Under the pieces are notes generated by a model. That model saw only the letters and a program-made list of their open reading frames with translations. It ran no database searches and was not told the DNA's origin. A stretch of 64,000 bases of DNA from a virus: positions 48,246-112,245 of IMG/VR virus record IMGVR_UViG_3300046314_000148; one strand, given 5' to 3'. Of this stretch, positions 4,697 through 52,063 are shown piece after piece (position 1 is the stretch's first letter; the number at the start of each line of letters is the position of its first letter). Position numbers and translations under genes: made by a program.

Positions 4697-4708
4697 TCAT
4701 AATGGTGA

Positions 4709-4811
4709 TATACTAATACTGTCCCCCACATGGGCCTACGCTTAGGATGGATTAGTTACCTATTTATAAGACCGTGGCCATCGTGCTTGAATTGCCCGTG
4801 TGGGGGCTTTA
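4709..4811 (+). ncRNA. Candidate small structured RNA with 13-bp closing stem
   Basis: TATACT at 4709-4714 predicts a transcript start near 4721. From there CCCCCACATGGGC (4723-4735) pairs with GCCCGTGTGGGGG (4794-4806) across about 58 nt that contain a smaller CCTA/TAGG hairpin. The second arm is followed by CTTTAT. No ORF fits the interval. It could also be an extended terminator shared by the divergent genes. Confidence 0.4.
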
Positions 4812-4814
4812 TGG

Positions 4815-4826
4815 TATACTTTTCAT
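4815..4826 (+). promoter_or_regulatory. Leaderless -10 for the Dps-like gene
   Basis: TATACT at 4815-4820 is 6 nt before the ATG at 4827. This decides the start: the in-frame GTG at 4800 would lie upstream of the promoter. Confidence 0.6.
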
Positions 4827-5834: not shown

Positions 5835-6773
5835 ATGGGTCAGCCCACTATATTCATAACCATACCAGCATACGAGGATCCTCAGCTCCTGGAGACCATA
5901 GAGGGGGCACTGGACAATGCCTTATATCCAGAAAGACTATTCTTTTGTATTGGTATGCAATACAGAGTTCTGCCAGATATATCTAAATACCTAAGTAATC
6001 CAAATTTCAAATTTTTATTTTATGATGTAGATACTAGACCAGGTGTGTACCAGATCAGAAAAGAGATGGCAGACGAGCACAGCGGCCAGGACTATTTTAT
6101 GATGATCGACTCACACATGACATTTGTCAAGTATTGGGACTCTATGTTGGTAAATGACTATAAAAATTTGGTGGCAACTCACGGAGAAAAGACCGTGATG
6201 TCTAAGCCAGTGACACACAAGATAGGCTTGACCCTAAACAATGGGCATATAAACGATTATCCATGTTGGGAGATAAATCGCAATGTCAGCCCTAAAGAGA
6301 TCAATAGGTTTTTAATTCCAGCAGTTCGCAACATCCCATGGAATGGTGATAGATTTATAAAGATATACTACGCCTGTAGCCATTTCTTTTTTACTAGCAA
6401 AAAGTTTCTAGAGGACCTTGGATTTTTCTCAGGTATAAGATTCTATTGCGAGGAACTAATAACTAGCGTCCTAATTTACATATCTGGTTGGGACATATAC
6501 ATGAATCCATCTCATATATTAGTTGGCCACGATGATAAAAAAACCATGAGAAGCCTATACAATAGAGATAGCTACTCTCTGGCCGATGGCAAGACCTTTA
6601 CGGCAATAGAAGATGACGGGGGTACCAAGTTGGAGATTGCAAGGTTTGTGCTAACTGGAAAGTCTAAGCTCATAGATGTGAACGCTAGCAGATCAGTAGA
6701 AGATTATTACACGGTGTCTGGCCTAGCTGACGTATATCGTGAGCTAAAGGTCGAAAATCTAATATTAGATTAA
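5835..6773 (+). CDS. GlcNAc-transferase-like glycosyltransferase (PF11397/GT60-like)
   Basis: The N-terminus IFITIPAYEDPQLLETIEGAL and the MIDSHMTF motif (DSH at 92-94) match the family that includes Skp1-hydroxyproline GlcNAc transferases, in which the DxH/DxD triad binds UDP-sugar and metal. Length (312 residues) fits a soluble catalytic domain. TATAGT directly precedes the ATG. The acceptor is unknown. The family link to hydroxyproline is interesting because the window also has prolyl-hydroxylase-like genes and a collagen-repeat virion protein. Confidence 0.8.
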   Translation: MGQPTIFITIPAYEDPQLLETIEGALDNALYPERLFFCIGMQYRVLPDISKYLSNPNFKFLFYDVDTRPGVYQIRKEMADEHSGQDYFMMIDSHMTFVKYWDSMLVNDYKNLVATHGEKTVMSKPVTHKIGLTLNNGHINDYPCWEINRNVSPKEINRFLIPAVRNIPWNGDRFIKIYYACSHFFFTSKKFLEDLGFFSGIRFYCEELITSVLIYISGWDIYMNPSHILVGHDDKKTMRSLYNRDSYSLADGKTFTAIEDDGGTKLEIARFVLTGKSKLIDVNASRSVEDYYTVSGLADVYRELKVENLILD

Positions 6774-7010
6774 GTCGTGCTCTCTTAGGTATGTTCTGGC
6801 TTTATGGCAGTTCGAGCAAACGACATCGCACTTTCTGACCTCTTTCCAGGCAGCGTCTCTACCAAACTTCTTTAGGACCCTGTATACTATGTCAACCTTC
6901 TTGACACCTGGACGATGATCAAACTCTAGGATGTAGTGGGGGTACTTAACCTTACAGTCAAGGCAGCCCATCTTTTCCTTATGCGTCTGAAACTCAAGAA
7001 AGCTTGTCAT
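6765..7010 (-). CDS. Small HNH-type endonuclease-like protein
   Basis: Residues CLDCKVKYPHYILEFDHRP and CSNCHKARTYLREHD give the two CxxC zinc knuckles and the central DH of an HNH finger. Length (81 residues) is a minimal HNH. It could be a free-standing homing-type endonuclease or a packaging-associated HNH. It lies between convergent and divergent neighbours and overlaps the previous stop by 9 nt. TATAAT on the minus strand lies 7 nt upstream of the ATG. Confidence 0.75.
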   Translation of the reverse strand: MTSFLEFQTHKEKMGCLDCKVKYPHYILEFDHRPGVKKVDIVYRVLKKFGRDAAWKEVRKCDVVCSNCHKARTYLREHDLI

Positions 7011-7036
7011 CTATTAAATTATAACATTATTGGTTG

Positions 7037-7048
7037 TATAATTATTGT
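7037..7048 (+). promoter_or_regulatory. Leaderless -10 TATAAT
   Basis: TATAAT at 7037-7042 is followed by 6 nt and the ATG at 7049, which excludes the upstream TTG at 7034 as start. Confidence 0.6.
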
Positions 7049-7276
7049 ATGGATTTGAACATTGAAAACATTGACGATATCGAGATGCGTTCTCGACAGC
7101 TATTGCAAAAGATAGATGATGTTACAGCAGACCTTTATAGCCTGGGTGGCCTAGAGGAGCGTCTTGTGTTTATGTCTAACCTTCGTAGCCTTATCGCAGA
7201 AAAAGATCTTATCGGTGATCAGTTGGCTGTAGATGTTTTAAATTGGGCTTGGCAAAGACTTGCGGAATCAGACTGA
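7049..7276 (+). CDS. Hypothetical helical protein
   Basis: The 75-residue acidic, all-helical protein (MRSRQLLQKIDDVTADLYSL) has no recognised family. The start is set by the leaderless promoter. Confidence 0.6.
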   Translation: MDLNIENIDDIEMRSRQLLQKIDDVTADLYSLGGLEERLVFMSNLRSLIAEKDLIGDQLAVDVLNWAWQRLAESD

Positions 7277-7304
7277 GTCTGCTAGAATAGTATAGCTAAT
7301 AATC

Positions 7305-7377
7305 GGCCCCATCGTTTAGAGGCCTAGGACACCGCCCTTTCACGGCGGCAGCACGGGTTCGAATCCCGTTGGGGTCA
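7305..7377 (+). tRNA. tRNA-Glu (TTC)
   Basis: The acceptor stem is GGCCCCA/TGGGGTC, the anticodon stem CCGCC/GGCGG encloses loop CTTTCAC (anticodon TTC), and the T arm is ACGGG-TTCGAAT-CCCGT. The discriminator is A and no CCA is encoded. Confidence 0.95.
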
Positions 7378-7397
7378 CTCATAGAGAGAAGATCGGT

Positions 7398-8291
7398 ATG
7401 ATACTAGTCACAGGTGGTGCAGGATTTATTGGATCCCATCTGGTCGATAAGCTAATCAGTGATGGCTTCACCGTGCGAGTAATTGATAACGAGTCTGCCA
7501 CAGAGAATGATGCCTTCTACTGGAACCCAGAGGCAGACAACCACAAGCTAGACGTGGCTAACTATGAAGCAACTAGGCATCTCTATGATGGAATAGAGGT
7601 TGTCTACCATCTGGCAGCAATCTCCAGAATACAGCCAGCAATTGCCAGCCCACATTCTGTAGTAGAAACAAACATTGTTGGTACAGAAAATGTCCTTCGC
7701 TGTTCCGCAGAGGCAGGGGTGCAAAGGTTTGTATTCTCATCATCCTCATCTATTTATGGTAATAACGATATTCCAAATGTGGAATCTCAGAATGCAGACT
7801 GCCTAAACGCATACTCATCAAGCAAGCTCTCTGGCGAGCTCATGTGCAATGCAATGCATGGTGTATCTGGAATGGAAACAATCTCTCTTAGATTTTTTAA
7901 TGTTTATGGTGAGCGTCAGCCGTTACGAGGTAAGTACGCAACAGTAATTGGCCTATTCCTTCTCCAGGCCAAAAGAAATTTGCCGCTTACCATAGTGGGT
8001 GACGGGCATCAGACAAGAAGCTTTACTCATGTCTCGGATGTTGTAGATGCATGCTACAGAGCAGGATTCTCTGTTCCCTGGGATGGGGCATTCGGGGATA
8101 CCTATAACGTAGGCTATGAAACCTCGTACTCCATAAATGATGTTGCCAAAATGATATCAGATAACACTGCCAGCATCCCAGAAAGAATAGGGGAAGCTAG
8201 GCACACACTATCTGACTCCTCTAAGTTTAAGGATGTCTTTGGGTGGAAGCCAAATGTATCTCTAGAGGATTGGGTAGCCCAGAATGTCTAA
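7398..8291 (+). CDS. NAD-dependent sugar epimerase/dehydratase (UDP-glucose 4-epimerase type)
   Basis: This extended SDR carries the NAD motif GGAGFIGS (6-13), catalytic serines (SSSSS 114-118) and YSSSK (139-143). It is 297 residues, slightly short of a full GalE, but catalytic and binding parts are present. It would interconvert UDP-hexoses. It overlaps the UDP-glucose dehydrogenase gene by 8 nt, which suggests a two-step UDP-uronic-acid/epimer pathway feeding the glycosyltransferases. Confidence 0.88.
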   Translation: MILVTGGAGFIGSHLVDKLISDGFTVRVIDNESATENDAFYWNPEADNHKLDVANYEATRHLYDGIEVVYHLAAISRIQPAIASPHSVVETNIVGTENVLRCSAEAGVQRFVFSSSSSIYGNNDIPNVESQNADCLNAYSSSKLSGELMCNAMHGVSGMETISLRFFNVYGERQPLRGKYATVIGLFLLQAKRNLPLTIVGDGHQTRSFTHVSDVVDACYRAGFSVPWDGAFGDTYNVGYETSYSINDVAKMISDNTASIPERIGEARHTLSDSSKFKDVFGWKPNVSLEDWVAQNV

Positions 8292-9878: not shown

Positions 9879-10100
9879 ATGACAACGGTTTATACTAAGC
9901 CAGCATGCGTCCAATGTGACCAGACAAAGAAGCTATTGGATAAGAACGGGGTAGAGTACACAACCATTGATATCTCTAAGGACCAGGAAGCATTCGACAA
10001 GATTGTTGCCATGGGATTCATGTCAGCACCAGTAGTTATTTCTGGAAATGATAGCTGGGCAGGGTTCCAGCCAGATAAAATTAATTCAATAACTGCTTGA
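9879..10100 (+). CDS. nrdH: NrdH-type glutaredoxin
   Basis: The 73-residue thioredoxin-fold protein has redox motif CVQC (10-13), SAPVV (the cis-proline loop) and a C-terminal GFQPDKI. It is the NrdH form that delivers electrons from thioredoxin reductase to class Ib ribonucleotide reductase. No reductase gene is in this window, so it would serve a phage enzyme outside it or the host enzyme. TATAAT (about 9851) and a GAGGAG ribosome site precede it. Confidence 0.88.
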   Translation: MTTVYTKPACVQCDQTKKLLDKNGVEYTTIDISKDQEAFDKIVAMGFMSAPVVISGNDSWAGFQPDKINSITA

Positions 10101-10125
10101 CAACTAGCCTCCACCTAAGTATAAT
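10097..10125 (+). promoter_or_regulatory. Canonical promoter TTGACA-N17-TATAAT
   Basis: TTGACA at 10097-10102 and TATAAT at 10120-10125 are exactly 17 nt apart. It overlaps the end of nrdH and drives the 10.15-12.5 kb operon. Confidence 0.8.
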
Positions 10126-10153
10126 AGATATACAAAAGGTATGAGAGGACCCG

Positions 10154-10330
10154 ATGCACGAAGATATCCTAGGCGTAGTGTTTGGCATTGACCACATTAT
10201 TGCAGAGTTCTTTTGGAATGCCATATTCGCAATAGCAGTATTTGCATTTTCAAAAGCCAAGGCTAAGCGTAGCCTACACAAATACATTGATGATAAGCAC
10301 GGTGTAACACACCAGAAGGATGAGTACTAA
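10154..10330 (+). CDS. Small membrane protein (58 aa)
   Basis: The ATG follows GAGAGGA. A single hydrophobic segment (about 17-35, EFFWNAIFAIAVFAF) is followed by a basic KAKAKRSLHKY stretch and a polar tail. It ends just inside the GroES start region, so it is co-transcribed with it. Confidence 0.6.
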   Translation: MHEDILGVVFGIDHIIAEFFWNAIFAIAVFAFSKAKAKRSLHKYIDDKHGVTHQKDEY

Positions 10331-10331
10331 T

Positions 10332-10622
10332 ATGAGCATTAGACCACTAGAAGATAAGGTAGTCCTAGAGCTGCCAAAGGCAGAAGAAAAGACAACTCAG
10401 TTTGGCCTTATCATTGCAGGAACAGCAGATGAGAAGCCACAGGAGGCAATTGTAGTGGCTGTAGGTCCAGGAGCCAAGTTTGCAGACGGTAGTACCATGG
10501 AAATGGCAGTAGAGCCAGGAGATAAGGTTATCTTTTCTAAGTACCAGGGTACAGAGGTAGAACACGAAGGCAAGAAGTATCTAATCGTTGCCTACCGAGA
10601 CATCTTTGCAGTGATTGGATAG
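10332..10622 (+). CDS. groES: GroES-like co-chaperonin
   Basis: The 96-residue protein starts MSIRPLEDKVVLE and contains the mobile loop region (about 16-32), VVAVGPG, the GDKVIFSKYQGTEVEHEGKKYLIV core and the AYRDIFAVI end of GroES. It would cap host GroEL, like gp31 of T4, to fold phage proteins such as the capsid protein. The second ATG (10332) fits the family start better than the one at 10320. No GroEL gene is present in the window. Confidence 0.9.
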   Translation: MSIRPLEDKVVLELPKAEEKTTQFGLIIAGTADEKPQEAIVVAVGPGAKFADGSTMEMAVEPGDKVIFSKYQGTEVEHEGKKYLIVAYRDIFAVIG

Positions 10623-10626
10623 TATA

Positions 10627-10824
10627 ATGGGAAGAATTCCAGACATCAACTACGCAGATGAATATGAGCGTGGTTATGAGGCTGCACTACACGCACTGCA
10701 TGATGAATTTGAAAAGGAATACTTTAAGATTGCCGATGAAGATCCGTACTATGCGTACTACATCAAGCATGTTCTAAATGTTATTCGTAAAAAGATTAAT
10801 CCACTTATCGCCATCGATGAGTAG
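10627..10824 (+). CDS. Hypothetical acidic helical protein
   Basis: The 65-residue protein contains YERGYEAALHALHDEFEKEY, an amphipathic helix. The ATG at 10627 was preferred over the TTG at 10615. It overlaps the next gene by 8 nt. Family unknown. Confidence 0.55.
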   Translation: MGRIPDINYADEYERGYEAALHALHDEFEKEYFKIADEDPYYAYYIKHVLNVIRKKINPLIAIDE

Positions 10825-10996
10825 GCATAGAGCAACCAGCCACTGGTCCTACCTGTGGGGCATTCTTGATTACCCTATTCCAGTTTATAAGCATTGGCTT
10901 CTGAATAGCTGGAACTACTTTACAAAACCAAAGATATCTGCTAAGGTAGCAGAGTACACAAAAAGACTTAGGAGACTCCATGACAGAGCCAATTGA
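10817..10996 (+). CDS. Small basic hypothetical protein
   Basis: The ATG at 10817 overlaps the previous stop. The 59-residue product is Trp/Tyr rich (SHWSYLWGILDYPIPVYKHW) with a basic C-terminal helix (YTKRLRRLHDR). It overlaps the following start by 17 nt. No family is recognised. Confidence 0.5.
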   Translation: MSRHRATSHWSYLWGILDYPIPVYKHWLLNSWNYFTKPKISAKVAEYTKRLRRLHDRAN

Positions 10997-39592: not shown

Positions 39593-40294
39593 ATGGCAAC
39601 CTCATCTAACATTAATTTCCCTACATCGGGATACGCCTCCAAGGTAAAGGCTTCGCAGCAAATCGAAGAGCCACAATTTTTTGCCGTCCCAGGACCACAG
39701 GGGCCTCCTGGACCGCAGGGACCAAAGGGGCTTCCAGGAGTTCCAGGAGAGTCTATAAAAGGCGACAGAGGCGACACAGGCCCTGCAGGACCACAAGGAG
39801 AGGCTGGCAGGTCATATCTCCCATCGTATAATCAAAAAATTGGCTGGGCAAGGTATGTTAGCAAAACTGTTAAGTCAAAACCAATAGGTGCAACACGTGG
39901 AGAAGATGGCTGGGTTAGTTTTTGGATAGACTCTTCTCAGAAAATAGAAGACTATTTGCCAGAAGGATCTGTAAGCCTGTATAGTGATGAAACTAGAAGA
40001 ATAAACTTTAAAGGCCTAGAAATAGGATCTCAGATACAAATAACCTACGATTTTCAAATTGAGACATTTGGTAGCAACACTGAGCTTTGGGTAAGATCAC
40101 TATTTCCAGGAACCGAGAAGGCAGTAACAACCTTTTTTGCTTCTTTTAAGTATCAGCACACATACGATATATCAATAACTCAAAACTTCACTATCGATAG
40201 TCAACTAGAGAAAACAGCTGGAGTAGTTCCACAACTAATGTCAGACCTAGATGCTACAGCGATTCTAAAATCAGTATATATCTCAGTATATTAG
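39593..40294 (+). CDS. Collagen-repeat virion protein
   Basis: Thirteen Gly-X-Y triplets at about 33-72 ([17 protein letters not shown] and on) form a short collagen-like triple helix, preceded by a 32-residue head and followed by a 160-residue beta-rich globular region. Such trimers are used in phage tail fibres. Proline in the Y position could be hydroxylated. Leaderless: GATAAT is 6 nt before the ATG. Confidence 0.85.
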
Positions 40295-41276: not shown

Positions 41277-41735
41277 ATGACTGCACAAAATATTGATGGT
41301 ACCTCTCTAGGTACTGGCGTTTATAATACAAAAGTTCCTGGATATGACGATCCAGCAGACATTCAAGCAGCTCTAAAACTATTCCTTTATGGATCAACGA
41401 CCTTCGACCCTGCAGCAGCAGGAGCAATCGATAACTTGCCAAATCCGTCTATTGCTAGATATATCAAGGTTATGCAAGATGAGATCGATGCTCTGGAATC
41501 AGCAGGACTTGGATCTTCGTATGGCAATGAGCCTACCTCTCCACCTTCTGGATATATCTGGATGCCAAATACCTCAACTACTACTGTTCCGCTAGTTCAA
41601 GCTGTTATTTACCAGAACTCTGCCCCAGTGTCAAACCTCGTTGACGGCCTACTGTGGGTAGATAAGAATTCGACACCACTAACAATGTATGTGTATGATC
41701 TAGGAACAACTACCTGGAAAGAGATAAGTGCATAA
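41277..41735 (+). CDS. Putative fibre/virion protein
   Basis: Starts with TAQNIDGTSLGTGVYNTKVPGYDDPADIQAALKLFLYG and ends with LWVDKNSTPLTMYVYDLGTTTWKEI, a common end of phage fibre heads. 152 residues. TAATG overlap to the next. Confidence 0.6.
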   Translation: MTAQNIDGTSLGTGVYNTKVPGYDDPADIQAALKLFLYGSTTFDPAAAGAIDNLPNPSIARYIKVMQDEIDALESAGLGSSYGNEPTSPPSGYIWMPNTSTTTVPLVQAVIYQNSAPVSNLVDGLLWVDKNSTPLTMYVYDLGTTTWKEISA

Positions 41736-42379
41736 TGACAACATATCCGATAAGCTCAGAGGCCAAAGTTGCCTACCTATTTGACGGAACAAACTGGAGA
41801 CCAATCTCTGGTGTAGCTAGCCCAAGTGCTGACTATACCTGGACTGGCGATCATGTTTTTAATTCAGAATCAACAGTAACATTGGAGACAGTAGTAAAAA
41901 ATAAGGCTGGTATCAATAATTTTGCTACAGCTACCGCTAGAGATGCTGCACTGCCAAACCCAGTTACTGGCTTGGTTGCCTTTGTTGCATCCGATGCCGA
42001 TGGTACCGTAAATGACATTCAATTTTTCGATGGAACTAGGTGGAGATCATCTAATGATGCTGCTATTCTAAAGTCTCCAGTTGTATCTGCAAATGCTTAT
42101 ACACTTGTTGCAACAGATGCTGGCAACAGTCTAAAGATTACTGCTTCTACTGCAACAACTATCTATATTCCAGAAAATGCATCTAACTCATTTAAGATTG
42201 GTCAGAAGGTAGAGATCTTGAGACTTGGATCTGGTGCAGTATCTATTGCTCCAGTTTCTGGCACAGTAGTCCTTAACAGTAAATCTTCAAACAGAAAGAT
42301 TGCTGCACAATATTCTGGTGCAGTTCTTACAAAGACCAACACAAACGAGTGGCTCCTAATAGGCGATCTGACGGCGTAG
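41735..42379 (+). CDS. Fibre protein with shared capping domain
   Basis: N-terminal LFDGTNWRPISG and DIQFFDGTRWRSS modules, then a C-terminal beta domain (about 115-214) with TTIYIPENASNSF, GQKVEILRLGSGAVSI and WLLIGDLTA. The C-terminal domain matches the end of the 48713-49900 protein. Confidence 0.7.
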   Translation: MTTYPISSEAKVAYLFDGTNWRPISGVASPSADYTWTGDHVFNSESTVTLETVVKNKAGINNFATATARDAALPNPVTGLVAFVASDADGTVNDIQFFDGTRWRSSNDAAILKSPVVSANAYTLVATDAGNSLKITASTATTIYIPENASNSFKIGQKVEILRLGSGAVSIAPVSGTVVLNSKSSNRKIAAQYSGAVLTKTNTNEWLLIGDLTA

Positions 42380-42387: not shown

Positions 42388-42735
42388 ATGATTGGTTCAT
42401 TTGGTTTGTGGTCATCCTCTAAGGGAATGAAAACTGTATCTGACTTGGTCGGAAAAACTAGGACCGACGCTACTGCTCAGATACTGGCCGATGGGTTTAT
42501 CCAGGGAACAGAAACGAAGTTTGACTCTACAGATGCAGCAGACCTGCTAAAGCATAACACCATTAAGTCACAGGAACCTGTTGCTGGAACTTTGTTTACC
42601 TACGAGTTGCCAGTGAATGTAACCTATATATCGTTTGGCTTTACACCATTTGGAGTGTTTAGCTTTGGCCCATTTTCAGTTTTCAATTTCTTTGGAGTCT
42701 TCAGCTTTGGGTTTTCTGTATTTAGCTTTAGATAG
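42388..42735 (+). CDS. PASTA-like protein with Phe-Gly-rich tail
   Basis: Residues 15-80 (VSDLVGKTRTDATAQILADGF, SQEPVAGTL) look like a PASTA domain, which binds peptidoglycan stem peptides. The last 35 residues are an aromatic repeat (FGFTPFGVFSFGPFSVFNF and on) ending FSFR. The gene ends opposite the convergent NlpC/P60 gene (8-nt overlap). Confidence 0.65.
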   Translation: MIGSFGLWSSSKGMKTVSDLVGKTRTDATAQILADGFIQGTETKFDSTDAADLLKHNTIKSQEPVAGTLFTYELPVNVTYISFGFTPFGVFSFGPFSVFNFFGVFSFGFSVFSFR

Positions 42736-43306
42736 TCTTCACGATTGTTGTATAAGAAACTGCCGAATACTTCCCAGCAAATTTTTCTATATCTTCGACT
42801 CTTGTTAGATGCCCATGCTTGGGTGCATGAATCATTTTTCCATTACCGACATATATACCAACGTGATATGCTGACTTGTTCCCGTTGTATTTGAATACTA
42901 CAAGGTCCCCAGGTTTTGGTGTTTTAGTCTTTGTTCCAAAGTTCTCCTGCTGGGATGCACGGTGCTCTAGTTCAACCCCCAGCTGCTCATAAAACCATAG
43001 GGTTAGCCCAGAGCAGTCCCAACCTTGGGGGGTAGCTCCAGAAAAAACATACCAAGTTTTGTTAACGTGAGCAGACAGTTTATCTATTGCTTTGTCTACT
43101 GCAATTGTGTTTTCTCTAAGCTTTTGAATTCTGGCTTCATTTATAGCGTCTTGTGCCCTGACCTCTAGTCTTTGTAGAGTGGCTACAGAGACATGGTTTC
43201 CACGTTCTGGTCTTTCGGGGGTTGTCGATCCAGAAGAAACTCCAGCTGAAATACTTCCAGTTGCAATTGTAAAAATTGTGGTTCCTATTAGCAATAATTC
43301 TTTCAT
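42728..43306 (-). CDS. NlpC/P60 peptidoglycan hydrolase (endolysin candidate)
   Basis: Catalytic Cys98 in GWDCSGLT, His148 in AYHVGIYVG and a third polar residue (H160 in HAPKHGH) define an NlpC/P60 gamma-D-glutamyl-diaminopimelate endopeptidase. The N-terminus has a hydrophobic signal-like stretch (LLLIGTTIFTIATGSISAG), then a helical linker. It is on the minus strand in the fibre block. It could be an endolysin exported by the host or a cell-wall hydrolase used at entry. AAGGAGG precedes the start. Confidence 0.85.
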   Translation of the reverse strand: MKELLLIGTTIFTIATGSISAGVSSGSTTPERPERGNHVSVATLQRLEVRAQDAINEARIQKLRENTIAVDKAIDKLSAHVNKTWYVFSGATPQGWDCSGLTLWFYEQLGVELEHRASQQENFGTKTKTPKPGDLVVFKYNGNKSAYHVGIYVGNGKMIHAPKHGHLTRVEDIEKFAGKYSAVSYTTIVKTI

Positions 43307-43375
43307 AAATTACTACCTCCTTTTTATTCTTTTCGTAGTTACGACCCTTACACGGTCTTGGCGACAATATTTTTA

Positions 43376-43453
43376 TTAGTGCGATAGCAATAAAAATGTC
43401 TGTTGTTGAGAGTTAGTTAGGATTTCAACATTGTTGTTACTCTGTTTAGTCAT
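43376..43453 (-). CDS. 25-residue leader peptide upstream of the hydrolase
   Basis: Strong AAGGAGGACAA ribosome site, ATG at 43453, Asn/Gln-rich, ends TAA. It lies between an attenuator-like hairpin and the hydrolase gene. Confidence 0.45.
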   Translation of the reverse strand: MTKQSNNNVEILTNSQQQTFLLLSH

Positions 43454-43468
43454 TTGTCCTCCTTAGAA

Positions 43469-43490
43469 CAAAAACTTCCTTTTACGGAAG
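43469..43490 (-). terminator. Attenuator-like hairpin in the hydrolase leader
   Basis: On the minus strand CTTCC-GTAAAA-GGAAG is followed by TTTTTG. It is downstream of TATAAT (about 43505) and upstream of the 25-residue ORF. Confidence 0.6.
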
Positions 43491-43552
43491 TCAGACATCA
43501 ATTATACCACTTTTTAGTCATTTTAAGGAAACAGTCTGATATAATTTAATAT

Positions 43553-44065
43553 ATGGCCACAGGTAGATCCAATATATATGAAATTCCATTCCCACAATCT
43601 GGGGATGCCGTAAACGTTCATGGAGACATCAAGAGCCTTGTAGAAAGGCTAGACCTAGTTCTTCCACAAGCCTCATATGTCGATATTCCAGCAAAGAATA
43701 CATCTGGCTCAACCATACCTGCAGGATCTGCAGTCTACGTGACTGGTCATGATGGAACCAATGTTACGGTTTCTGCAGCAACTGGAAGCACGACTACCCC
43801 AACTTTGGGATTGCTTAGAGCATCAACAACAAACAACTCTGTAGGTGTCGTCGTTGTAGCAGGAGTTATCACAGGAATAAACACCTCTTCTTTCTCGGCT
43901 GGAGATACCCTATTTATCGGTGAATCTGGCGGACTAGTAAAAACATCTACATCAACTACTGGTGTTGCAGTTGCTACTGTAATTTATTCAGCAGTAAGCG
44001 GAACCATTATGGTTGGAACCCGAGGCGACGGAACATGGGGAGCACTAAAAGCTGGCATAGCTTAA
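43553..44065 (+). CDS. Fibre-associated beta protein
   Basis: Starts IYEIPFPQSGDAVNVHGDIKSLVERLDLVL (a short trimer-forming helix) followed by Gly/Thr/Ser-rich beta repeats (VGVVVVAGVITGINTSSFSAGDTLFIGESGG), as in phage adhesin heads. 170 residues. TATAAT is 7 nt upstream of the ATG. Confidence 0.6.
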   Translation: MATGRSNIYEIPFPQSGDAVNVHGDIKSLVERLDLVLPQASYVDIPAKNTSGSTIPAGSAVYVTGHDGTNVTVSAATGSTTTPTLGLLRASTTNNSVGVVVVAGVITGINTSSFSAGDTLFIGESGGLVKTSTSTTGVAVATVIYSAVSGTIMVGTRGDGTWGALKAGIA

Positions 44066-44083
44066 TGGTGGTATAATAATAAA

Positions 44084-44476
44084 ATGGCAAGAGGAAATAA
44101 CTACTCAGTTGGAAACATCCCCCCACAGGTCGCTTGGACAGTTGTGCGTGGAGATACTGCCGCATTCAGAGTCTACCTAACAGACGATACTAAGACAGCG
44201 TTGACCATGGCAGACTGGGACATATCGATGAAGATAAAGCGTCCAAACCTAGCAAAGAATCTTGGCATTATTACTGATGACGCAACCTTGGTACTAACTC
44301 TTACCCCAGCACCAGACGCAGATGATGTAGCTGGAGAGTTTACAGTCTCACTAACCGCAGAAGAATCAGAATCCCTAGAGACTGGAGACATCTTTGACAT
44401 CCAGGTTTCTCAGGTTGGAACTGTTTGGACTGTGGCCCAGGGTAAGATGATTATCCTGGAAGATGTAACTGACTAA
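44084..44476 (+). CDS. BppU_N-like domain protein (third copy)
   Basis: VAWTVVRGDTAAFRVYLTDD...WDISMKIKRP is the best conserved of the three copies, with a GDIFDIQVSQVGTVWTVAQGKM end. Probable baseplate component. TATAAT is 6 nt upstream of the ATG. Confidence 0.65.
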   Translation: MARGNNYSVGNIPPQVAWTVVRGDTAAFRVYLTDDTKTALTMADWDISMKIKRPNLAKNLGIITDDATLVLTLTPAPDADDVAGEFTVSLTAEESESLETGDIFDIQVSQVGTVWTVAQGKMIILEDVTD

Positions 44477-44700
44477 TGTCAAAATCTATAATTGTCGATA
44501 AAGCAAAACGCTCTGTAAGATATATTAAGAACTCTAACTTTTTTACATCCAAGATATCTTATAGATCTGGCACGGTAAAAATAAATCAAACCCTACCTTT
44601 TAGAATTAAATTCACTAATATCGGTATTGCTGGATATGGCCAAGGTGGAGCGGCACCAATTGGAATTGCAGTCATTGGACTGAACAACTACGTTATGTAA
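44476..44700 (+). CDS. Small basic protein after the BppU-like gene
   Basis: 74 residues, basic first half (KAKRSVRYIKN), Gly-rich end (GIAGYGQGGAAPIGIAVIG). Coupled by TAATG. Unknown. Confidence 0.55.
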   Translation: MSKSIIVDKAKRSVRYIKNSNFFTSKISYRSGTVKINQTLPFRIKFTNIGIAGYGQGGAAPIGIAVIGLNNYVM

Positions 44701-44730
44701 TACATTCATAAACGATTGTATAATTAATGT

Positions 44731-45177
44731 ATGTCTAGAACAACCCTCCCCTATGTAAAGACCAGATTTCAAACTGGTGACCGTCCAGAACAACAGGACT
44801 ATGTAGATCTAATTGATACTACATCTGCTCAATCAACTGATCTAGGAAGCTTCGGTAATAACGAAAATACTATTTCTGGAATTGAGAACCCAACAGTAAT
44901 CGATTCATTCGATGCAACTATATGGCGTATGGTTAAGTACATGGTATCTATTTCTAAGGTATCAGATGGAAATAACCTGTTCTACGCAACCGAACTTACC
45001 ATCCTTGTAGACAACACAGACGTGAATGTCTCTGAGTATGGAACAATTGACAATGATGGGAATATTGGCACCGTTAGCGTCTCACGCTCTGGAGATACAG
45101 TCGCACTGACTGTTACCCCAGATGCAATAGTAAAGCCTGTTACTGTGCGATTCGCTCGCATCGGTCTCAAGGCGTAA
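44731..45177 (+). CDS. Virion protein, YLV-type beta domain
   Basis: The segment RMVKYMVSISKVSDGNNLFYATELTILVDNTDVNVSEYGTI is shared with the C-terminal domain of the 45200-48109 fibre and with T4-like cyanophage virion proteins. 148 residues. Probably the capping domain of a fibre. Leaderless TATAAT 6 nt upstream. Confidence 0.65.
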   Translation: MSRTTLPYVKTRFQTGDRPEQQDYVDLIDTTSAQSTDLGSFGNNENTISGIENPTVIDSFDATIWRMVKYMVSISKVSDGNNLFYATELTILVDNTDVNVSEYGTIDNDGNIGTVSVSRSGDTVALTVTPDAIVKPVTVRFARIGLKA

Positions 45178-45199
45178 TTACCCCAACTAGGAGATTAAA

Positions 45200-48109
45200 A
45201 TGGCAACAGTAAACAAGAATTTCAAGATCAAAAGCGGTCTTGTTGTAGAAGGTACCACAGGTACCATTAATGGTGAGAACATTCTTACCGAAGGTGCAAG
45301 CGACCAATATATCATTGATCTTATTGGCGGCGAAACACTAGTTACCTCAGTTGAATCGACTCAGCTTGAGGTAGTCAATGGAGAGCTTAACGTTAAGGCC
45401 AACGTATTCGATGACGCAGGTGCAGCAACCCAGGCATACAACGATGGCGTGGACTACACTAATGGTGAAATCACCACAGCACTAACAGCTGCACAGGGCT
45501 ATGCAACTACCGCAGAAGGTAATGCAAATGACTACACAGACGATGCAATTGCTGGAGAAGTAACAGATCGCAACAACGCAATCGATGGTGCAATCAACAC
45601 CGAAGTTACCAACCGCAACTCAGCAATTGCAACCGCTCAGACCGCTGCCGAAGACTACGCAGATACTGCTATTTCAAACCTTAACCTAGGCACAACCTAT
45701 GACGCATACGGTGCAGCAGCCACAGCAGAGCAGAACGCCATTGCCCACGCAGACTCTTTAACTACAGACGACATTGCAGAAGGTACAAACGAGTACTTTA
45801 CAGCAGATCGTGCTCAGGATGCAGTTGCTACTGCTCTATCTAATGGAACTCACACAAACATCACCGTAGCTTACGATGATGCAGCTAATGCAATTAGCCT
45901 TACTGGTGCAGTAACTTATACAGACGAAGATGCTAGAGACGCAATCGGAACTGCACTAACAGCTGGTGCAAATGCCGTTGTTACAGTAGACGACGCTGCA
46001 AATACCATTACAGTTGCCGTAGACGAAGACATCGTTATTCCATCTACTGGATCTCTAGAAGTTCAGACAAACGACTTTAACGTTGGTGCAGGTTCTGCAG
46101 CCCTTAGAACATCTGATGAGTATGTAAACCCACTTGCAGTGTTCTCTGGAGACTTTGATGACGACTACGCACAGGTAGTTATTAAGAACACTGGTTCTGG
46201 AGTCAACTCGTCATCTGACCTACAGCTTTACTCAAACAACGGAGATGACATCAATGGTGGTTGGGTAGACCTAGGTATCACATCGTCAACCTTCTCTGAC
46301 CCAAACTTTACAATCACATCGCCTAACGATGGTTACATCTTCATGGAGGCTCCAGAAGGAACCGACGGAAACGGTGACTTTGTTATCGCAACTGGATCTA
46401 ACGGTGCTAGAAACGCTATTGTTTTTGCAGCTGGAGGACTACAGTCTGACAACACACAGATGACCATTCTTCCAGATGAGTCAGTAACCATTGCTATCAA
46501 TACCCCATCTACATCTCCATCTACTGGTGCTCTTGTTGTTCAGGGTGGTGTTGGTATCCAAGGTGACGTTAACATCGAGGGTAACATTACATTCGGTGGA
46601 GAAGGAACAAGCCTTACAACTGAAAACCTAGCCGTTACAGACCCAATAATCTACGTTGGTGACCAGAACGCTGGAGACGCAGTAGACATGGGTATCGTTA
46701 CTGAGTACAAGGACGGTGCTACAACTAAGTTTGCTGGTGTTGTTCGTGACGCTTCTGATGGTGTCTTCAAGGTATTCTCTGGTGCAACAACTAAGCCAAC
46801 TTCTACAGTTGACTTTGCTGGTGCTGGCCTAGAGTACGGAGATTTGAAGGTAGACGAGATTGTCGCAGCTAGTGCAACACTTACTAACGTTACCATCGGC
46901 GTAGTTGACCAGGATGAGATTGCCTACCTAAACGGTGTGACATCTAACATTCAGGATCAGCTAGACGCTAAGCAGGCAGAGGTTACAGCTGGAGACGGTC
47001 TATCATTCTCGGGCACAACCCTAAATGTTGACCTAGACCCTACTAGCAACCTAACTCTTGCTGGCGGCCTACTAGCGGTTGATACAACATCGATTGCAAC
47101 TCGTACCTATGCAGATGGTGCTGCAAGCGATGCAGACACTTCAGCAAGAGGATACGCAGACAGCCTTGCCTCTAACTACGACGCAGCAGGAGCAGCCGCA
47201 ACTGCTAAGTCAGAAGCAATTTCTGATGCCGCAGACTATACAAATACTGCCCTAGAGTCATACACAACAGCTGCAAGCCTAGAGACAACAATCGATGGAT
47301 ATGGATTTGCTTACACAAGCGAAATCCCAACATCAACCGATGCACTTTTCGAAGGTGTAAATAATCTATACTACACCGATGCTCGTGTAGATGGAGAAGT
47401 CGTAGGTCTTTTGACAAATGCCACTCTAAACAACATTAGCATTACTGCAGATGGGTATGACCTAACCATTACTGCAGAAAATGGTGTTGGAGACTCTACA
47501 ACCGACGATCTAGTCGAAGGTGAAGATAACCTTTACTACACAACTGGACGTGCAAAGTCAGATGCAGCGAATCTTCTAGTCGGAGCAACCCTCAGCAACA
47601 TAACTATTACTGGTGACGGCGACGGTCTAACCATTACTGCAGAAAATGGTGTAGCTGGTTCAACCACATCCGATCTTACCGAAGGCACAAACCTTTACTT
47701 CACAGACCAGAGAGCTTTGGATGCAATTGCAAATGAAACTATCTATCCAACAGTTGTAGAGATTAATGACTACCGCAAGGAAGAGGCAACGAGAATATCT
47801 GCTGCCTCAGAGTCAACTGTAAACCTACATACCTTTGGCTACCCATACGAATCAGCTAAATACTTGGTTCGTGTAGTTGGCTGGGTTGGTGGAGTAAAGC
47901 ACTCACAGCTTACAGAAATTCTTGTAACAAAGGATGGAAACAATAACATTGCTATCACAGAGTATGGAATGATCTGCACAAACACAGACAACATTGCATC
48001 ATTTACTGCCACAGAGTCATCAGGGGAAATAACCCTGACTGCTACTACTGGAGTAGTAAGCAGCTGTGAAATAGTTACAGCAGCAACCCTACTTTCTTGG
48101 GCAGACTAA
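45200..48109 (+). CDS. Large tail fibre protein
   Basis: 969 residues. The N-terminus MATVNKNFKIKSGLVVEGTTGTI is an anchor shared with the next fibre gene. It is followed by Ala/Thr/Asp-rich coiled and beta-helix repeats (TTDDIAEGTNEYFTADRAQDAVA appears several times in related forms), a jelly-roll region (300-450), YLNGVTSNIQDQLDAKQ, and a C-terminal cap that resembles the 44731 gene product. Host-binding fibre by layout and repeats. GGAG precedes the start. Confidence 0.85.
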   Translation: MATVNKNFKIKSGLVVEGTTGTINGENILTEGASDQYIIDLIGGETLVTSVESTQLEVVNGELNVKANVFDDAGAATQAYNDGVDYTNGEITTALTAAQGYATTAEGNANDYTDDAIAGEVTDRNNAIDGAINTEVTNRNSAIATAQTAAEDYADTAISNLNLGTTYDAYGAAATAEQNAIAHADSLTTDDIAEGTNEYFTADRAQDAVATALSNGTHTNITVAYDDAANAISLTGAVTYTDEDARDAIGTALTAGANAVVTVDDAANTITVAVDEDIVIPSTGSLEVQTNDFNVGAGSAALRTSDEYVNPLAVFSGDFDDDYAQVVIKNTGSGVNSSSDLQLYSNNGDDINGGWVDLGITSSTFSDPNFTITSPNDGYIFMEAPEGTDGNGDFVIATGSNGARNAIVFAAGGLQSDNTQMTILPDESVTIAINTPSTSPSTGALVVQGGVGIQGDVNIEGNITFGGEGTSLTTENLAVTDPIIYVGDQNAGDAVDMGIVTEYKDGATTKFAGVVRDASDGVFKVFSGATTKPTSTVDFAGAGLEYGDLKVDEIVAASATLTNVTIGVVDQDEIAYLNGVTSNIQDQLDAKQAEVTAGDGLSFSGTTLNVDLDPTSNLTLAGGLLAVDTTSIATRTYADGAASDADTSARGYADSLASNYDAAGAAATAKSEAISDAADYTNTALESYTTAASLETTIDGYGFAYTSEIPTSTDALFEGVNNLYYTDARVDGEVVGLLTNATLNNISITADGYDLTITAENGVGDSTTDDLVEGEDNLYYTTGRAKSDAANLLVGATLSNITITGDGDGLTITAENGVAGSTTSDLTEGTNLYFTDQRALDAIANETIYPTVVEINDYRKEEATRISAASESTVNLHTFGYPYESAKYLVRVVGWVGGVKHSQLTEILVTKDGNNNIAITEYGMICTNTDNIASFTATESSGEITLTATTGVVSSCEIVTAATLLSWAD

Positions 48110-48122
48110 TTAAGTAAAAGGT

Positions 48123-48149
48123 TGGGGGGATCCTTTCAAAATCCCCCAC
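48123..48149 (+). terminator. Hairpin after the large fibre gene
   Basis: TGGGGGGAT and ATCCCCCA pair across a 9-nt loop. No T tract follows, so it may be a partial terminator or an RNA stability element. Confidence 0.5.
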
Positions 48150-48175
48150 ACTAAGTTTTAAAATAGGAGAAGCAC

Positions 48176-48637
48176 ATGGCAACAGTCGAAAAAGACTTTA
48201 AGGTTAAAAATGGACTGCTAGTTACATCTGGCGGTAGTTTTGGTGGCACAGTAGTTGTTGCCACTCCAACCGACCCTACCCACGCAGCCACTAAGGCCTA
48301 TGTGGATTCGCTAACCGATAGCCCCCTCGTAAATGTTCAGTCAACTGCACCAGAAGAGCCTGTATCTGGCCAGATGTATGTTAACTCAGAAACTGGAAGA
48401 CTAACAATTTTTGACGGAACAAATTGGATAACCTTTGCAACCTTAACAGATGCAGAGACAATACCAGAGCACATCCACGATACATCAATCGGCGGATCTG
48501 GTCTGATCGTAAGTACTTTTATAGATTCTGGATTCTACAACTCTCCATCAGGAGCAGCTTTAGATGGTGGATTCTATAATGAAACCGTTTGGGATAACAC
48601 CTATGACGGCGGAATAGCAACAGACAACTTTAATTAA
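48176..48637 (+). CDS. Tail fibre protein with shared N-terminal anchor
   Basis: Same start as the large fibre (MATVEKDFKVKNGLLVTSGG), then a THAATKAYVDSL hinge and a Gly/Tyr-rich tip (FIDSGFYNSPSGAALDGGFYN). 153 residues. May be an interchangeable receptor-binding tip. Confidence 0.75.
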   Translation: MATVEKDFKVKNGLLVTSGGSFGGTVVVATPTDPTHAATKAYVDSLTDSPLVNVQSTAPEEPVSGQMYVNSETGRLTIFDGTNWITFATLTDAETIPEHIHDTSIGGSGLIVSTFIDSGFYNSPSGAALDGGFYNETVWDNTYDGGIATDNFN

Positions 48638-48712
48638 ATATTCATATAAATGAATGTTATAATTATAAATAGATACCCAAAGGGTCAGCCCCAATATTAG
48701 GAGATAATTACT

Positions 48713-49900
48713 ATGGCAACAAGAATGCAGCAACGCAGAGGAACTGCGGCTCAATGGACTTCAGCAGATCCAATCCTAGCAGCAGGAGAGATCGGCTTCG
48801 AGTCAGACACAGGCTTCTTCAAGATGGGTGACGGGACCAACCACTGGTCAGACCTATCATACTTCAAGGACCTGGGGGACCTAGCTGGATCATTTGACGA
48901 CTATGTTCCACTTACCCAAAAGGGTGCTGCTAACGGTGTTGCTACCCTAGATGGACAGTCTCAGATTCCTATCGCTCAGCTATCAAATATCATCATGGCC
49001 GCTCCAGAAGCCTTAGACACCCTAAACGAGATAGCAAATGAGATCGATGGAGTTAACGGTATCGTACAGACAAAGATCGATGCAGCCGTAACCACAGTAA
49101 ACTCTACCATTGACAGCTCTATTGTCGAAGGCGTTGATGATGCTCTAGGAAACTTGATCGCAGCTGGCACAGGACTAACAAAGTCATTTGACTCTGAGAC
49201 AAGAATTCTTACAATTTCTGCAGATTCAACTTTAGCTACAGATACCGAGCTATCAACAGCAATCTCTGACCACAACTCAGACAGCACAAATGTTCACGGT
49301 ATTGCAGATACCTCTGTTCTAGTTGTTCAATCAACCATCGATGCCCTAACAACTGACGACATCGCAGAAGGAACTAACGAGTATTACACAGATGCAAAGG
49401 CCCTAGCTGCAAATGCTTCAGCAATCGCTACAGCAAAGTCAGAAGCTATCGCAGATGCTACTAGCCAGGTTAGTGCCATCATTGACTCAGCTCCGTCAGC
49501 ACTGAACACACTGAATGAACTTGCGGCTGCTCTTGGAGACGACGCAAACTTCGCATCTACAGTAACCACAGCTCTTGATGGAAAGGTTGCATCATTTACA
49601 TCAATAAACCAGAAGACCTCAGCCTATACAACAGTGCTCACAGACCGTGACAAGCTTGTAGAGGTCAACTCATCGTCTGGTGTAACCATTACCATCCCTA
49701 CGAATGCATCAGTTGCCTACCCAGTAGGAACCTCGATCGATATCCTTCAGACTGGTTCTGGACAGGTTACAATTGCAGGTTCAGGAGGAGTTACTGTTAA
49801 TGCTACTCCAGGCCTAAAGCTACGCACTCAGTGGTCTTCAGCCACACTATTCAAGCGAGCAACCGACACTTGGGTTGTTTTCGGAGATCTATCAGCTTAA
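48713..49900 (+). CDS. Tail fibre with Mtd-like N-terminus
   Basis: RMQQRRGTAAQWTSADPILAAGEIGFESDTGFFKMGDGTNHWSDL is the N-terminal tropism-determinant-type module common on fibres. A coiled coil (TAKSEAIADATSQVSAIIDSA), then the capping domain ITIPTNASVAYPVGTSIDILQTGSGQVTI follow. 395 residues. The cap matches that of the 41735 product. Confidence 0.82.
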   Translation: MATRMQQRRGTAAQWTSADPILAAGEIGFESDTGFFKMGDGTNHWSDLSYFKDLGDLAGSFDDYVPLTQKGAANGVATLDGQSQIPIAQLSNIIMAAPEALDTLNEIANEIDGVNGIVQTKIDAAVTTVNSTIDSSIVEGVDDALGNLIAAGTGLTKSFDSETRILTISADSTLATDTELSTAISDHNSDSTNVHGIADTSVLVVQSTIDALTTDDIAEGTNEYYTDAKALAANASAIATAKSEAIADATSQVSAIIDSAPSALNTLNELAAALGDDANFASTVTTALDGKVASFTSINQKTSAYTTVLTDRDKLVEVNSSSGVTITIPTNASVAYPVGTSIDILQTGSGQVTIAGSGGVTVNATPGLKLRTQWSSATLFKRATDTWVVFGDLSA

Positions 49901-49922
49901 TCCTAGAAGGGGAATGAATTAA

Positions 49923-50645
49923 ATGGCAGCAAATAAAAGAGCAGGAAAGAAATCTCTTGCACAAAACGATTTCCTAGCACCTTCAGCACCGCTGATTGGA
50001 TCTGGAACTGACGTAGGAACTAGCCGTGCATACAATGATGGTGCAGTCTCTGTAACGTTCACACACCAGGGTGCTCAGGCAGCATCTTCATATACTGTAA
50101 CAGCGTCAACTGGACAAACTGCAACTGGGGCATCGTCTCCAATTGTGGTTTCTGGTATCGCAACTGGTGCAACACCAACATTTACAGTTACAGCAACGAA
50201 CGCTGCTGGTACCTCGGCAGCATCGTCTGCTACTGGTGCTGTTACCGTAACCACCGTTCCAGCTGCCCCAACATCTGTTGGTGCATCATCACCGAGCGGT
50301 GCAAACTACGACACAGTTACCTGGACAGCTCCAGCTAATGGCGGCAAGGCAATCACAAACTACTACGTAACTTCGTCAGATGGAAAGACTGCTAATACTG
50401 CATCAACAAGCGTTAACGTTACTCAGGAACAAGGAACCGCCCAGACATACACCGTATATGCTGACAACGCTAATGGAAGATCAGTTGCATCAGCTCCATC
50501 TGCTAGCGTTACAACATTCTCCTTTGTTCCATTTAGCGTTTTTAGCTTCTTCGGAGTATTTGGTTTTGGTCCATTCGGAGTATTTGGTTTTGGTCCATTC
50601 GGAGTATTTGGTTTTAGTCCATTCGGAGTATTTGGTTTTAGATAG
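49923..50645 (+). CDS. Fibronectin-type-III protein with Phe-Gly repeat tail
   Basis: Two FN3-like domains (about 15-110 and 111-200: AYNDGAVSVTFTHQG, AAPTSVGASSPSGANYDTVTWTAP). The last ~40 residues consist of an FGVFGFGP octapeptide repeated in exact 24-bp DNA units and end FGFR. The same type of tail occurs on the 42388 product. Confidence 0.7.
   Translation: MAANKRAGKKSLAQNDFLAPSAPLIGSGTDVGTSRAYNDGAVSVTFTHQGAQAASSYTVTASTGQTATGASSPIVVSGIATGATPTFTVTATNAAGTSAASSATGAVTVTTVPAAPTSVGASSPSGANYDTVTWTAPANGGKAITNYYVTSSDGKTANTASTSVNVTQEQGTAQTYTVYADNANGRSVASAPSASVTTFSFVPFSVFSFFGVFGFGPFGVFGFGPFGVFGFSPFGVFGFR
50550..50645 (+). repeat. Four 24-bp direct repeats encoding FGVFGFGP
   Basis: Units at 50550, 50574, 50598 and 50622, nearly identical, each encoding one octapeptide. 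The last unit ends in the stop. Confidence 0.85.
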
Positions 50646-50684: not shown

Positions 50685-50701
50685 GAATGGAGTCCAGCAG
50701 T

Positions 50702-51361
50702 ATGTACAAAGATCAAACACCTCTTCGGAGCATAAGTAAAACCACAAAAGAGCACAAGTTCTTTGAGAGATTTCTCGATAATGATCTAGAGAAGCTTGCT
50801 GCCGAACTTCAGGACAGATATAGCCTTATAGAAGATGCTAAAATTGCTGGGGTAACTCCAGTGACCCCCTTCGAGCTATGGAAAGATTCGAACAGCATCT
50901 CAACAATGAAATGGAGACAGTACAACGTCTTTCAATTCCACATCGATGGAATTTACGAGCTATATAAGTCAGTTGCAGAGATGGTCAGAGAAGCTTGTGA
51001 GTACTACGAACTAGACTTTGATGAGCAAAAGTTTATGATTCAGGGATGGTTTAATATTAACCGTTCTGGTAATGGAAAACTAAACTGGCACGAACATGGT
51101 GGCCCAGGTGCACCAGACTTTCACGGATACTACTCAGTAGCCGCAGAACCATCGTCAACACACTACATAGTCTTTGATAACGAAGTAGAAAATATTAATA
51201 AAAACAACCGTGCAATTCTTTCAGAAATGGGTCATCCACACGCAATGGGCGATTGGGACTGGGACGGTCCAAGAATTACCGTTGCTTACGATGTTACTCC
51301 ACTTGCTACCCTACAAAAAGCAGGCCACAACGCCGAGCAGCACTGGATTCCTCTTAGATAA
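50702..51361 (+). CDS. 2OG-Fe(II) oxygenase-like protein
   Basis: GWFNINRSGNGKLNWHEHGG, YYSVAAEPSSTHYIVFDN and HPHAMGDWDWDGPRITVAYD follow the strand order of 2OG oxygenases, with two HxH/His-rich clusters in place of a clear HxD...H. The ATG at 50702 has GGAG in front; the ATG at 50687 is possible. The activity could be a hydroxylase, but the metal site differs from P4H. Confidence 0.6.
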   Translation: MYKDQTPLRSISKTTKEHKFFERFLDNDLEKLAAELQDRYSLIEDAKIAGVTPVTPFELWKDSNSISTMKWRQYNVFQFHIDGIYELYKSVAEMVREACEYYELDFDEQKFMIQGWFNINRSGNGKLNWHEHGGPGAPDFHGYYSVAAEPSSTHYIVFDNEVENINKNNRAILSEMGHPHAMGDWDWDGPRITVAYDVTPLATLQKAGHNAEQHWIPLR

Positions 51362-51541: not shown

Positions 51542-52063
51542 ATGAAAGAATTAATTAGGTACGAAAAATCATTTATGCCAAAAGCAGACGCAGAGCTAAT
51601 CTCTGCCTACGCATCTAAGTACGATGACCTGTTTAATCATTTTGGAAATAATGAAAAAGAGTTTACAGTTCATACCCACGAAGAAATATCATCAAGGGAT
51701 CAGTCGGTCCTGGACTTGATAAATTACCACGCAAGAAGAGTGTACGACTTTGTTTGCGAAAACTACCCAGGACCATTTCTAGACTTTGATGAGTCAAAGA
51801 CTCACATAGCTAGGTTTGAAGAGGGCCGTGGCATGCACAAGCACTTTGATGCCAGCAAGCCTAATGATATAGCCACACTAATCTATCTGAATGATAACTA
51901 CTCTGGTGGAGAAGTCTTTTTCCCAGACCATGACATCTCTATTAAGCCAGAGGTTGGAGATTTAGTATGCTTTCCAGATACTCCAGATTTTGTTCATGGA
52001 GTCAACCCAATCATATCTGGAATCAGATATACGACACCTCGCTGGTTTACCCGTATAGTATGA
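51542..52063 (+). CDS. Prolyl 4-hydroxylase-like 2OG-Fe(II) oxygenase
   Basis: Iron triad H101-x-D103 (HKHFDA) and H152 (FVHGV), with R162 for 2-oxoglutarate. YLNDNYSGGEVFFPDHDISIKPEVGDLVCFPD is typical of P4H domains. 173 residues, no signal sequence. It lies directly before a giant tail protein. Its substrate may be a virion protein; this is inferred. Confidence 0.85.
   Translation: MKELIRYEKSFMPKADAELISAYASKYDDLFNHFGNNEKEFTVHTHEEISSRDQSVLDLINYHARRVYDFVCENYPGPFLDFDESKTHIARFEEGRGMHKHFDASKPNDIATLIYLNDNYSGGEVFFPDHDISIKPEVGDLVCFPDTPDFVHGVNPIISGIRYTTPRWFTRIV

Follow-up and report, generated by a model that had tools for sequence, protein, structure and literature searches.

The window analysed here is a stretch of 64,000 nucleotides, positions 48,246–112,245 at the right end of the 112,245-base IMG/VR record IMGVR_UViG_3300046314_000148, which derives from an uncultured phage. 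It encodes a portal protein (gene at 56219), a protease-like protein and a capsid protein (59285), all preceded by a long series of fibre-like genes. Two small proteins of this phage, one with a PASTA-like domain and the other of fibronectin type III (FN3) type, both end in an aromatic tract, and each is encoded directly behind a fibre-like gene. The features of the two loci are as follows.

41735–42379, + strand: fibre-like protein 1, 214 aa, with a match to minor tail protein families over its C-terminal ~120 aa (phrog_8780, E 1.1e-17, residues 88–212)
42388–42735, + strand: PASTA-type small protein with an aromatic tail, 115 aa (PASTA-like domain)
42634–42732, + strand: diverged aromatic tract FGFTPFGVFSFGPFSVFNFFGVFSFGFSVFSFR at the C-terminus of the PASTA-type protein (from the sequence; conserved in relatives)
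48713–49900, + strand: fibre-like protein 2, 395 aa, with an Mtd_N-type N-terminus (PF18454 Mtd_N, E 5.5e-12; phrog_8780, E 4.6e-19)
49923–50645, + strand: FN3-type small protein with an aromatic tail, 240 aa (Pfam fn3 in relatives; AlphaFold2 model)
50517–50642, + strand: aromatic tract FSFVPFSVFSFFGVFGFGPFGVFGFGPFGVFGFSPFGVFGFR of the FN3-type protein (from the sequence; predicted local distance difference test score, pLDDT, below 50)
50550–50645, + strand: four 24-bp tandem units (Tandem Repeats Finder, TRF, score 163, period 24; from the sequence)

The open reading frame (ORF) of the FN3-type protein terminates in FSFVPFSVFSF followed by FGVFGFGP, FGVFGFGP, FGVFGFSP and FGVFGFR. The last four elements correspond to in-frame 24-bp units (50550–50573, 50574–50597, 50598–50621 and 50622–50645), of which units 1 and 2 are identical, unit 3 carries one change (GGT to AGT, glycine to serine) and unit 4 is identical over its first 18 bp and then reads AGA TAG (arginine and stop). 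A first-pass annotation of this DNA had described four FGVFGFGP octapeptides encoded by exact 24-bp repeats; the four in-frame units stand, but only three of them are full octapeptides, the last being FGVFGFR, and the repeats fall just short of exact. With 3.8 copies, this array heads the 11 rows that TRF returns for the 64-kb window, the next one scoring 82. The same annotation was right to see a diverged version of the tract in the tail of the PASTA-type protein; TRF finds no array there, indicating that its units have diverged at the DNA level. A comparable tract is absent from every other ORF of the window and from the remaining 48 kb of the record. Two separate contigs, L002 (FN3 type, with G in unit 3 where the window has S) and L323 (PASTA type; L numbers denote our loci), have these tails in the same copy number, so that an assembly artefact, which the first-pass annotation had kept in view, does not account for them.

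The gap between the fibre-like gene and the small gene behind it is 8 nt at the PASTA-type locus and 22 nt at the FN3-type locus. Both fibre-like proteins possess a common C-terminal domain (phrog_8780 and phrog_21978 in each), and the C-terminal ~100 aa of fibre-like protein 2 share 54% identity with the ends of minor tail proteins from cultured Gordonia phages. The same arrangement of fibre gene and small gene is found in the relatives, with gaps mostly of 6–40 nt. The ending of the fibre domain was recognised upstream by a regular expression (regex) in 157 of 181 FN3-type and 21 of 36 PASTA-type entries; these counts are undercounts, since in the PASTA examples shown the domain can be seen even where the regex missed it, as with endings like GDLIA. 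In the cultured Gordonia phages Wizard and Reyja, a 198–199-aa protein of different sequence directly follows the minor tail protein, and one of the two is itself named minor tail protein. The arrangement in the window, in the relatives and in the Gordonia phages supports the view that a fibre gene and a gene for a putative small tip protein form a two-gene unit. Because each small gene lies directly behind a fibre-like gene with the conserved C-terminal domain, both small proteins very likely belong to the fibre apparatus of the virion, in line with the first-pass annotation, which had called them surface proteins.

The product of 42388–42735 scores 20.3 bits (E 5.3e-4) against PASTA (PF03793), below the cut-off of 23.2, which its homologues pass with 23.6 to 40 bits (L210, 40; L508, 35.9). 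Likewise, the FN3-type protein of the window has no match to Pfam fn3 itself, but it is 45–77% identical to members of one alignment of its relatives, and relatives pass the cut-off of 25 bits (L241, 35.4; L209, 30; L261, 34.8). In its AlphaFold2 model, residues 21–200 fold as two confident beta domains in tandem and the tail, residues 207–240, has a pLDDT below 50. Its best viral match by structure and sequence is a protein of an uncultured Caudovirales phage, 'Fibronectin type III', with 58% identity; this and similar proteins (UniProt A0A6J5NYB8 and others) are annotated by domain name only.

A scan of IMG/VR yielded at least 506 stretches with a relative of the FN3-type protein. Before counting, identical proteins, open ORFs where an end was needed (2 of 36 pairs) and three duplicate pairs (L355, L350, L505) were dropped. 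The tract is present in 195 of 196 unique FN3-type proteins, a set in which many loci were originally found via tract patterns; the one protein without it comes from an ORF truncated at the edge of its locus. A second scan was queried with the N-terminal part (N-part) of a relative, with no tract in the query, and kept 80 loci, 71 of them new: all 71 new relatives, fetched without the tail, carry an aromatic tract. Loss of the tail in close relatives, which the first-pass annotation had named as counter-evidence, was searched for and not found. The tracts come in several flavours, namely FGVFGFSP-like, PFFPPFFPFFP, YSFTP, NFYN or FCP types. Over 218 tracts, with a median length of 81, the composition is 39.8% Phe, 27.6% Pro and 6.5% Gly, with 42.6% aromatic and 1.3% charged residues.

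Among the 12 close pairs that were left after pairs of unequal tract length had been dropped, the pooled ratio of nonsynonymous to synonymous differences (pN/pS) is 0.04 for the tract and 0.15 for the N-part, which shows the tract to be under strong purifying selection. In 27 pairs whose N-parts have an identity of 93% or more, the tract length differs 17 times, and it does so even between proteins with identical N-parts (125 versus 88, 50 versus 64, and 131 versus 116 residues). The length of the tract is therefore fluid while its letters are held. As to the proposal of a recent expansion, the units of the FN3 array in the window are codon-identical, pointing to a recent expansion at the DNA level in this one array; it does not hold as the general cause, given the retention in 71 of 71 relatives, the low pN/pS and the scrambling of synonymous sites between units in the PASTA tract and in most tracts of the relatives, which by this sign look old.

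Among the relatives, L052 carries two tandem FN3-type genes (5995–7682), both ending in NFYNYSNFYN-type tracts and FSFYWFSR. In L403, PPRFGFRY terminates both a 793-aa protein of another kind (2895–5276) and the FN3-type protein (10001–10966), in each case behind PPHFPPFF tracts that contain H. The PASTA-type proteins of L210, L230 and L508 have Trp-rich segments (WSEWSAW...WGPW) between two aromatic tracts, which we take to resemble thrombospondin type 1 repeats. In the PASTA-type proteins of L505–L518, long simple linkers (VTP, PT, NTQ, NTI and ATT repeats) alternate with Cys-rich knobs and replace the aromatic tract. In 24 of the 80 loci listed from a DNA-pattern scan, the pattern sits in unrelated ORFs; in L204, L211, L214 and others an unrelated small protein family carries KTFGVFGFPPFFDC, and these loci were set aside.

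Both an FN3-type and a PASTA-type protein were readable in 36 distinct genomes, 34 of them with both ends. The two proteins carry the same class of end module in 29 of the 34 genomes (14 plain, 11 Hint, 4 Cys-rich), a concordance reached by none of 20000 permutations; the discordant genomes are L305, L510, L517, L518 and L522. In the 31 genomes where both tracts have at least 20 residues, the 4-mer similarity of the tracts is 0.204 within and 0.071 between genomes (again 0 of 20000 permutations), and the own partner is the best tract match in 21 of them. Terminal caps match as well (FNFAPWG twice, GCPPRC twice and PPRFGFRY twice). The two tracts of L350 even match unit by unit with different codons (G,T,N,N,R versus G,T,N,N,R,R). 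Codons agree at 779 of 1501 aligned identical residues, with 742.7 expected (about 2 standard deviations); this near-expectation value indicates a likeness that is mostly at the protein level, with little recent copying. Gene conversion as the sole cause of the matching tails is weakened by this agreement. One case does look like conversion: the Hint domains of L226 (PASTA type) and L209 (FN3 type), two contigs presumed to be of one phage species, are identical in protein and codons, and their tract codons agree at 40 of 48 positions against 31.9 expected. Old conversion followed by purifying selection may be the source of the matching tails.

The tract is followed by a further module in many relatives. 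The tree of FN3 N-parts has 164 rows: in 62 the protein stops at the tract or close to it, 50 carry a Hint domain, 46 show a Cys-rich end, and 6 fall into none of these classes; these labels change 47 times on the tree, against a mean of 79.5 for shuffled labels, with many forks weak. Hint domains stand directly after the tract at the C-terminus of fibre-associated proteins in L209 (4419–5663), L218 (3591–4487), L277 (2487–3842) and others. A profile of 25 such domains, with rows chosen for an initial Cys, matches the bacterial intein-like (BIL) domain 2lwy (E 4.3e-9) and many inteins in the PDB, and Intein_splicing (PF14890) is detected in 15 of the 25 members (E up to 0.1; best 4.3e-8). The Hint blocks of 65 such domains comprise Cys1 in 51, a C-terminal HN in 31 and TxxH in some; in 13 of the 14 without Cys1, Ser is at that position as judged by eye. 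This Ser variant marks a lineage (L219, L261, L272, L241, L426 and others) with a THDG or TFDN-like end in place of HN. In the 112,245-base record of the window no Hint domain, stand-alone ones included, is matched at E up to 1. Foldseek with the model of a Hint-bearing protein gave FN3 only among the matches listed, so the Hint fold was not probed by this search.

Two genes downstream of the FN3-type gene in the window bear on possible modification of the tract.

50687–51361, + strand: gene after the FN3-type gene, 2-oxoglutarate (2OG)-Fe(II) oxygenase-like by motif only, a possible modifying enzyme (similar to the L285 cluster)
51542–52063, + strand: 2OG-Fe(II) oxygenase family protein (PF13640, E 4e-11)

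Of the genes that lie downstream of 174 FN3-type genes on the same strand, 91 belong to one or the other of two clusters, and 76 of these members have a 2OG-like motif by regex. The representative of the larger cluster matches PF13640 (E 1.5e-9). The second, the L285 cluster, comprises 43 downstream genes, 30 with the motif by the same kind of search; Pfam gave no match for the L285 gene or for the window gene at 50687. The representative of a third downstream cluster matches Sulfotransfer_2 (E 1.9e-7). A cluster of 12 genes represented by L259 1484–2194 places a sulfotransferase-like gene directly after some genes of the FN3–tract–Hint type. The tracts may be modified by these neighbouring enzymes, which we regard as a lead.

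What could such a pair of tails be for? We propose, with about an even chance of being right, that the two small proteins are co-evolving adhesins that form the aromatic adhesive tips of two tail fibres. The FN3 or PASTA part would be placed at the end of the fibre encoded just upstream, and the exposed tract would act as a multivalent adhesive tip, binding the host envelope at a site that is hydrophobic or binds aromatic residues. BIL and Hint domains cut themselves off; if those of the relatives do the same, the tract would be left as the mature C-terminus, as it already is in the window phage, which lacks Hint. The two fibre tips would have tracts of one kind since they face a common host surface, and duplication or loss of units together with exchange of end modules would allow the tip to change quickly.

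Several observations weigh against this proposal of adhesive tips. In the window phage itself, the own partner ranks only third of 15 by 4-mers, and on the tree the concordance reduces to about four independent contrasts, three in the same direction and none opposite (sign test, p 0.25). Of the 36 genomes, 9 have an aromatic flavour in the FN3 protein but none that is recognised in its PASTA partner (several of the nine have T/P-, NTQ- or NTI-type linkers instead), so that these phages do without a matching tract. Nor does the tract always come last, as the 46 rows with a Cys-rich end demonstrate, and in front of such an end it could be a stalk. The AlphaFold models of both proteins leave the tract unstructured, and hence no binding site is visible in them. 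Hint cleavage is argued by sequence comparison only. There is no cultured member, and the proteins are known here from genes alone; a tblastn search of 50,697 phage records gave no match for the FN3 protein, the PASTA protein or a PFFP-type relative, with the low-complexity filter on, under which the tract alone would be missed.

The strongest competitor, which we consider rather unlikely but well ahead of the others, is that the tract is a tag for assembly or docking: the tracts would bind each other or a common part of the virion, for example the domain shared by the fibres, and would serve as glue inside the virion and not as a host-binding tip. That both fibres carry the same C-terminal domain fits this well, and the within-genome match of tracts and caps, sometimes unit by unit with different codons, is accounted for equally well. 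Against a docking tag stand a fibre domain that stays alike while the flavour shifts from FGVFGFSP to PFFPPFFP, a tract length that varies freely even next to an identical N-part, and some PASTA proteins that have no aromatic tract. Neutral low-complexity expansion or an assembly artefact has next to no probability in our judgement: fresh slippage would indeed give the codon-identical FN3 array of the window and variable lengths, but the pN/pS of the tract, its retention in 71 of 71 relatives and the same tails in separate contigs speak against it.

Two further alternatives appear improbable to us to the same degree. A membrane-active tip, with the uncharged tract entering the host membrane, or an envelope layer rich in lipid, once the phage has adsorbed, is suggested by the aromatic and nearly charge-free composition of the 218 tracts (43% and 1.3%). 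Pro at ~28% and the short units would nevertheless suit neither a transmembrane helix nor a normal transmembrane strand, and the PASTA and FN3 parts suggest the cell wall as target rather than the membrane. Anchoring to the tail, which the first-pass annotation had raised together with membrane insertion, may also apply. The tract might also be a modification scaffold, that is, a substrate of the neighbouring 2OG-Fe(II) oxygenases and sulfotransferases, which would decorate its Pro, Tyr, Asn or Phe; this role is compatible with adhesive tips. It draws on the downstream clusters, their PF13640 and Sulfotransfer_2 representatives and the PF13640 gene at 51542 in the window, yet the second cluster, including the window gene at 50687, has no Pfam match, adjacency alone says nothing on the substrate, and 2OG-Fe(II) oxygenases are common in aquatic phages anyway. 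Bolder than all of these, and a long shot, is a general aromatic fibre-tip device of aquatic phages. The two different tip proteins of a virion would have Phe tracts that match in register, bear no charge, and stick both to themselves and to the host; in many lineages a Hedgehog-like Hint domain would turn the tract end into an activated (thio)ester, allowing release of the tip, or its covalent attachment to another molecule such as a lipid, sugar or protein, either while the virion is being assembled or once it has reached the host.

For a unit of fibre and small tip protein, the nearest published model is gp38 of the T2/S16 type, a small receptor-binding protein distinct from the fibre trimer (gp37) on whose tip it sits, built of an unusual low-complexity repeat with variable parts (PMC12892980). 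Here too, each fibre has a small protein encoded beside it, in the window and alike in the relatives, and its position at the tip would correspond to that of gp38. The two differ in that Pfam and PHROGs reveal no sequence relation, and in that the tract has little Gly (6.5%) next to its Phe and Pro whereas gp38 has glycine-rich motifs (a poly-Gly II lattice); the base domains here are FN3 or PASTA, with a Phe/Pro repeat and a possible Hint or Cys-rich end module. Thus, a small adhesin with unusual repeats on a fibre tip is known from gp38, and the Phe tract, the base domains and the Hint ends are what differ. The Hint blocks of the relatives are like those of BIL and Hint domains, but their place here is the C-terminus of a fibre-associated phage protein, behind an aromatic tract; in the phages described in PMC3556154 and PMC5259590, Hint domains lie within inteins of terminase or ribonucleotide reductase.

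The likeness to FG-nucleoporins raised by the first-pass annotation turns out to be superficial. Both have Phe-Gly-rich repeats with low predicted structure. In FG-nucleoporins the FG motifs are separated by polar spacers, which the phage tracts, at ~40% Phe, 28% Pro and 1.3% charged residues, do not have; the tracts are also far more aromatic and lie at the end of a phage protein, and the PFFPPFFP and NFYN flavours hold no FG at all. No family of Pfam or PHROGs covers the tract, and no report of such tracts in phages was found in the open-licence literature. The retention of such tracts in hundreds of related viruses, often with a Hint domain attached, suggests a conserved, little-known kind of sticky fibre tip.

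If the proposal of adhesive tips is true, the fibres of a large group of phages, uncultured and probably actinobacterial, terminate in a sequence that is among nature's richest in phenylalanine, and these fibre-end tracts are strongly selected, change rapidly in length and are paired with self-cleaving or Cys-rich end modules. It would mean a new chemistry for phage host recognition, a first clue to what Hint domains do on fibre proteins, and a testable way into how phages locate bacteria that are abundant yet uncultured. Since two unrelated proteins match in one genome, whether they share a partner is directly testable.

That the host is actinobacterial is a guess, drawn from the capsid protein of the window, whose best matches are Streptomyces phages (43%), from the fibre domain (Gordonia phages) and from PASTA. 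A genome scan with the FN3 profile for a prophage host gave 77 loci, one of which has an aromatic tract followed by ~130 aa (L428, a 3.2-kb contig of a Chitinophagaceae metagenome-assembled genome); this single locus is too weak to propose Chitinophagaceae as host.

Two neighbouring genes of the window deserve mention. On the − strand, an NlpC/P60 peptidase gene (42728–43306) converges on the PASTA-type gene and overlaps its 3′ end by 8 bp. A Collagen-like fibre protein (Pfam Collagen, 27.3 bits) is encoded at 39593–40294; the 2OG-Fe(II) oxygenase at 51542 belongs to that region as well, and prolyl hydroxylation is possible.

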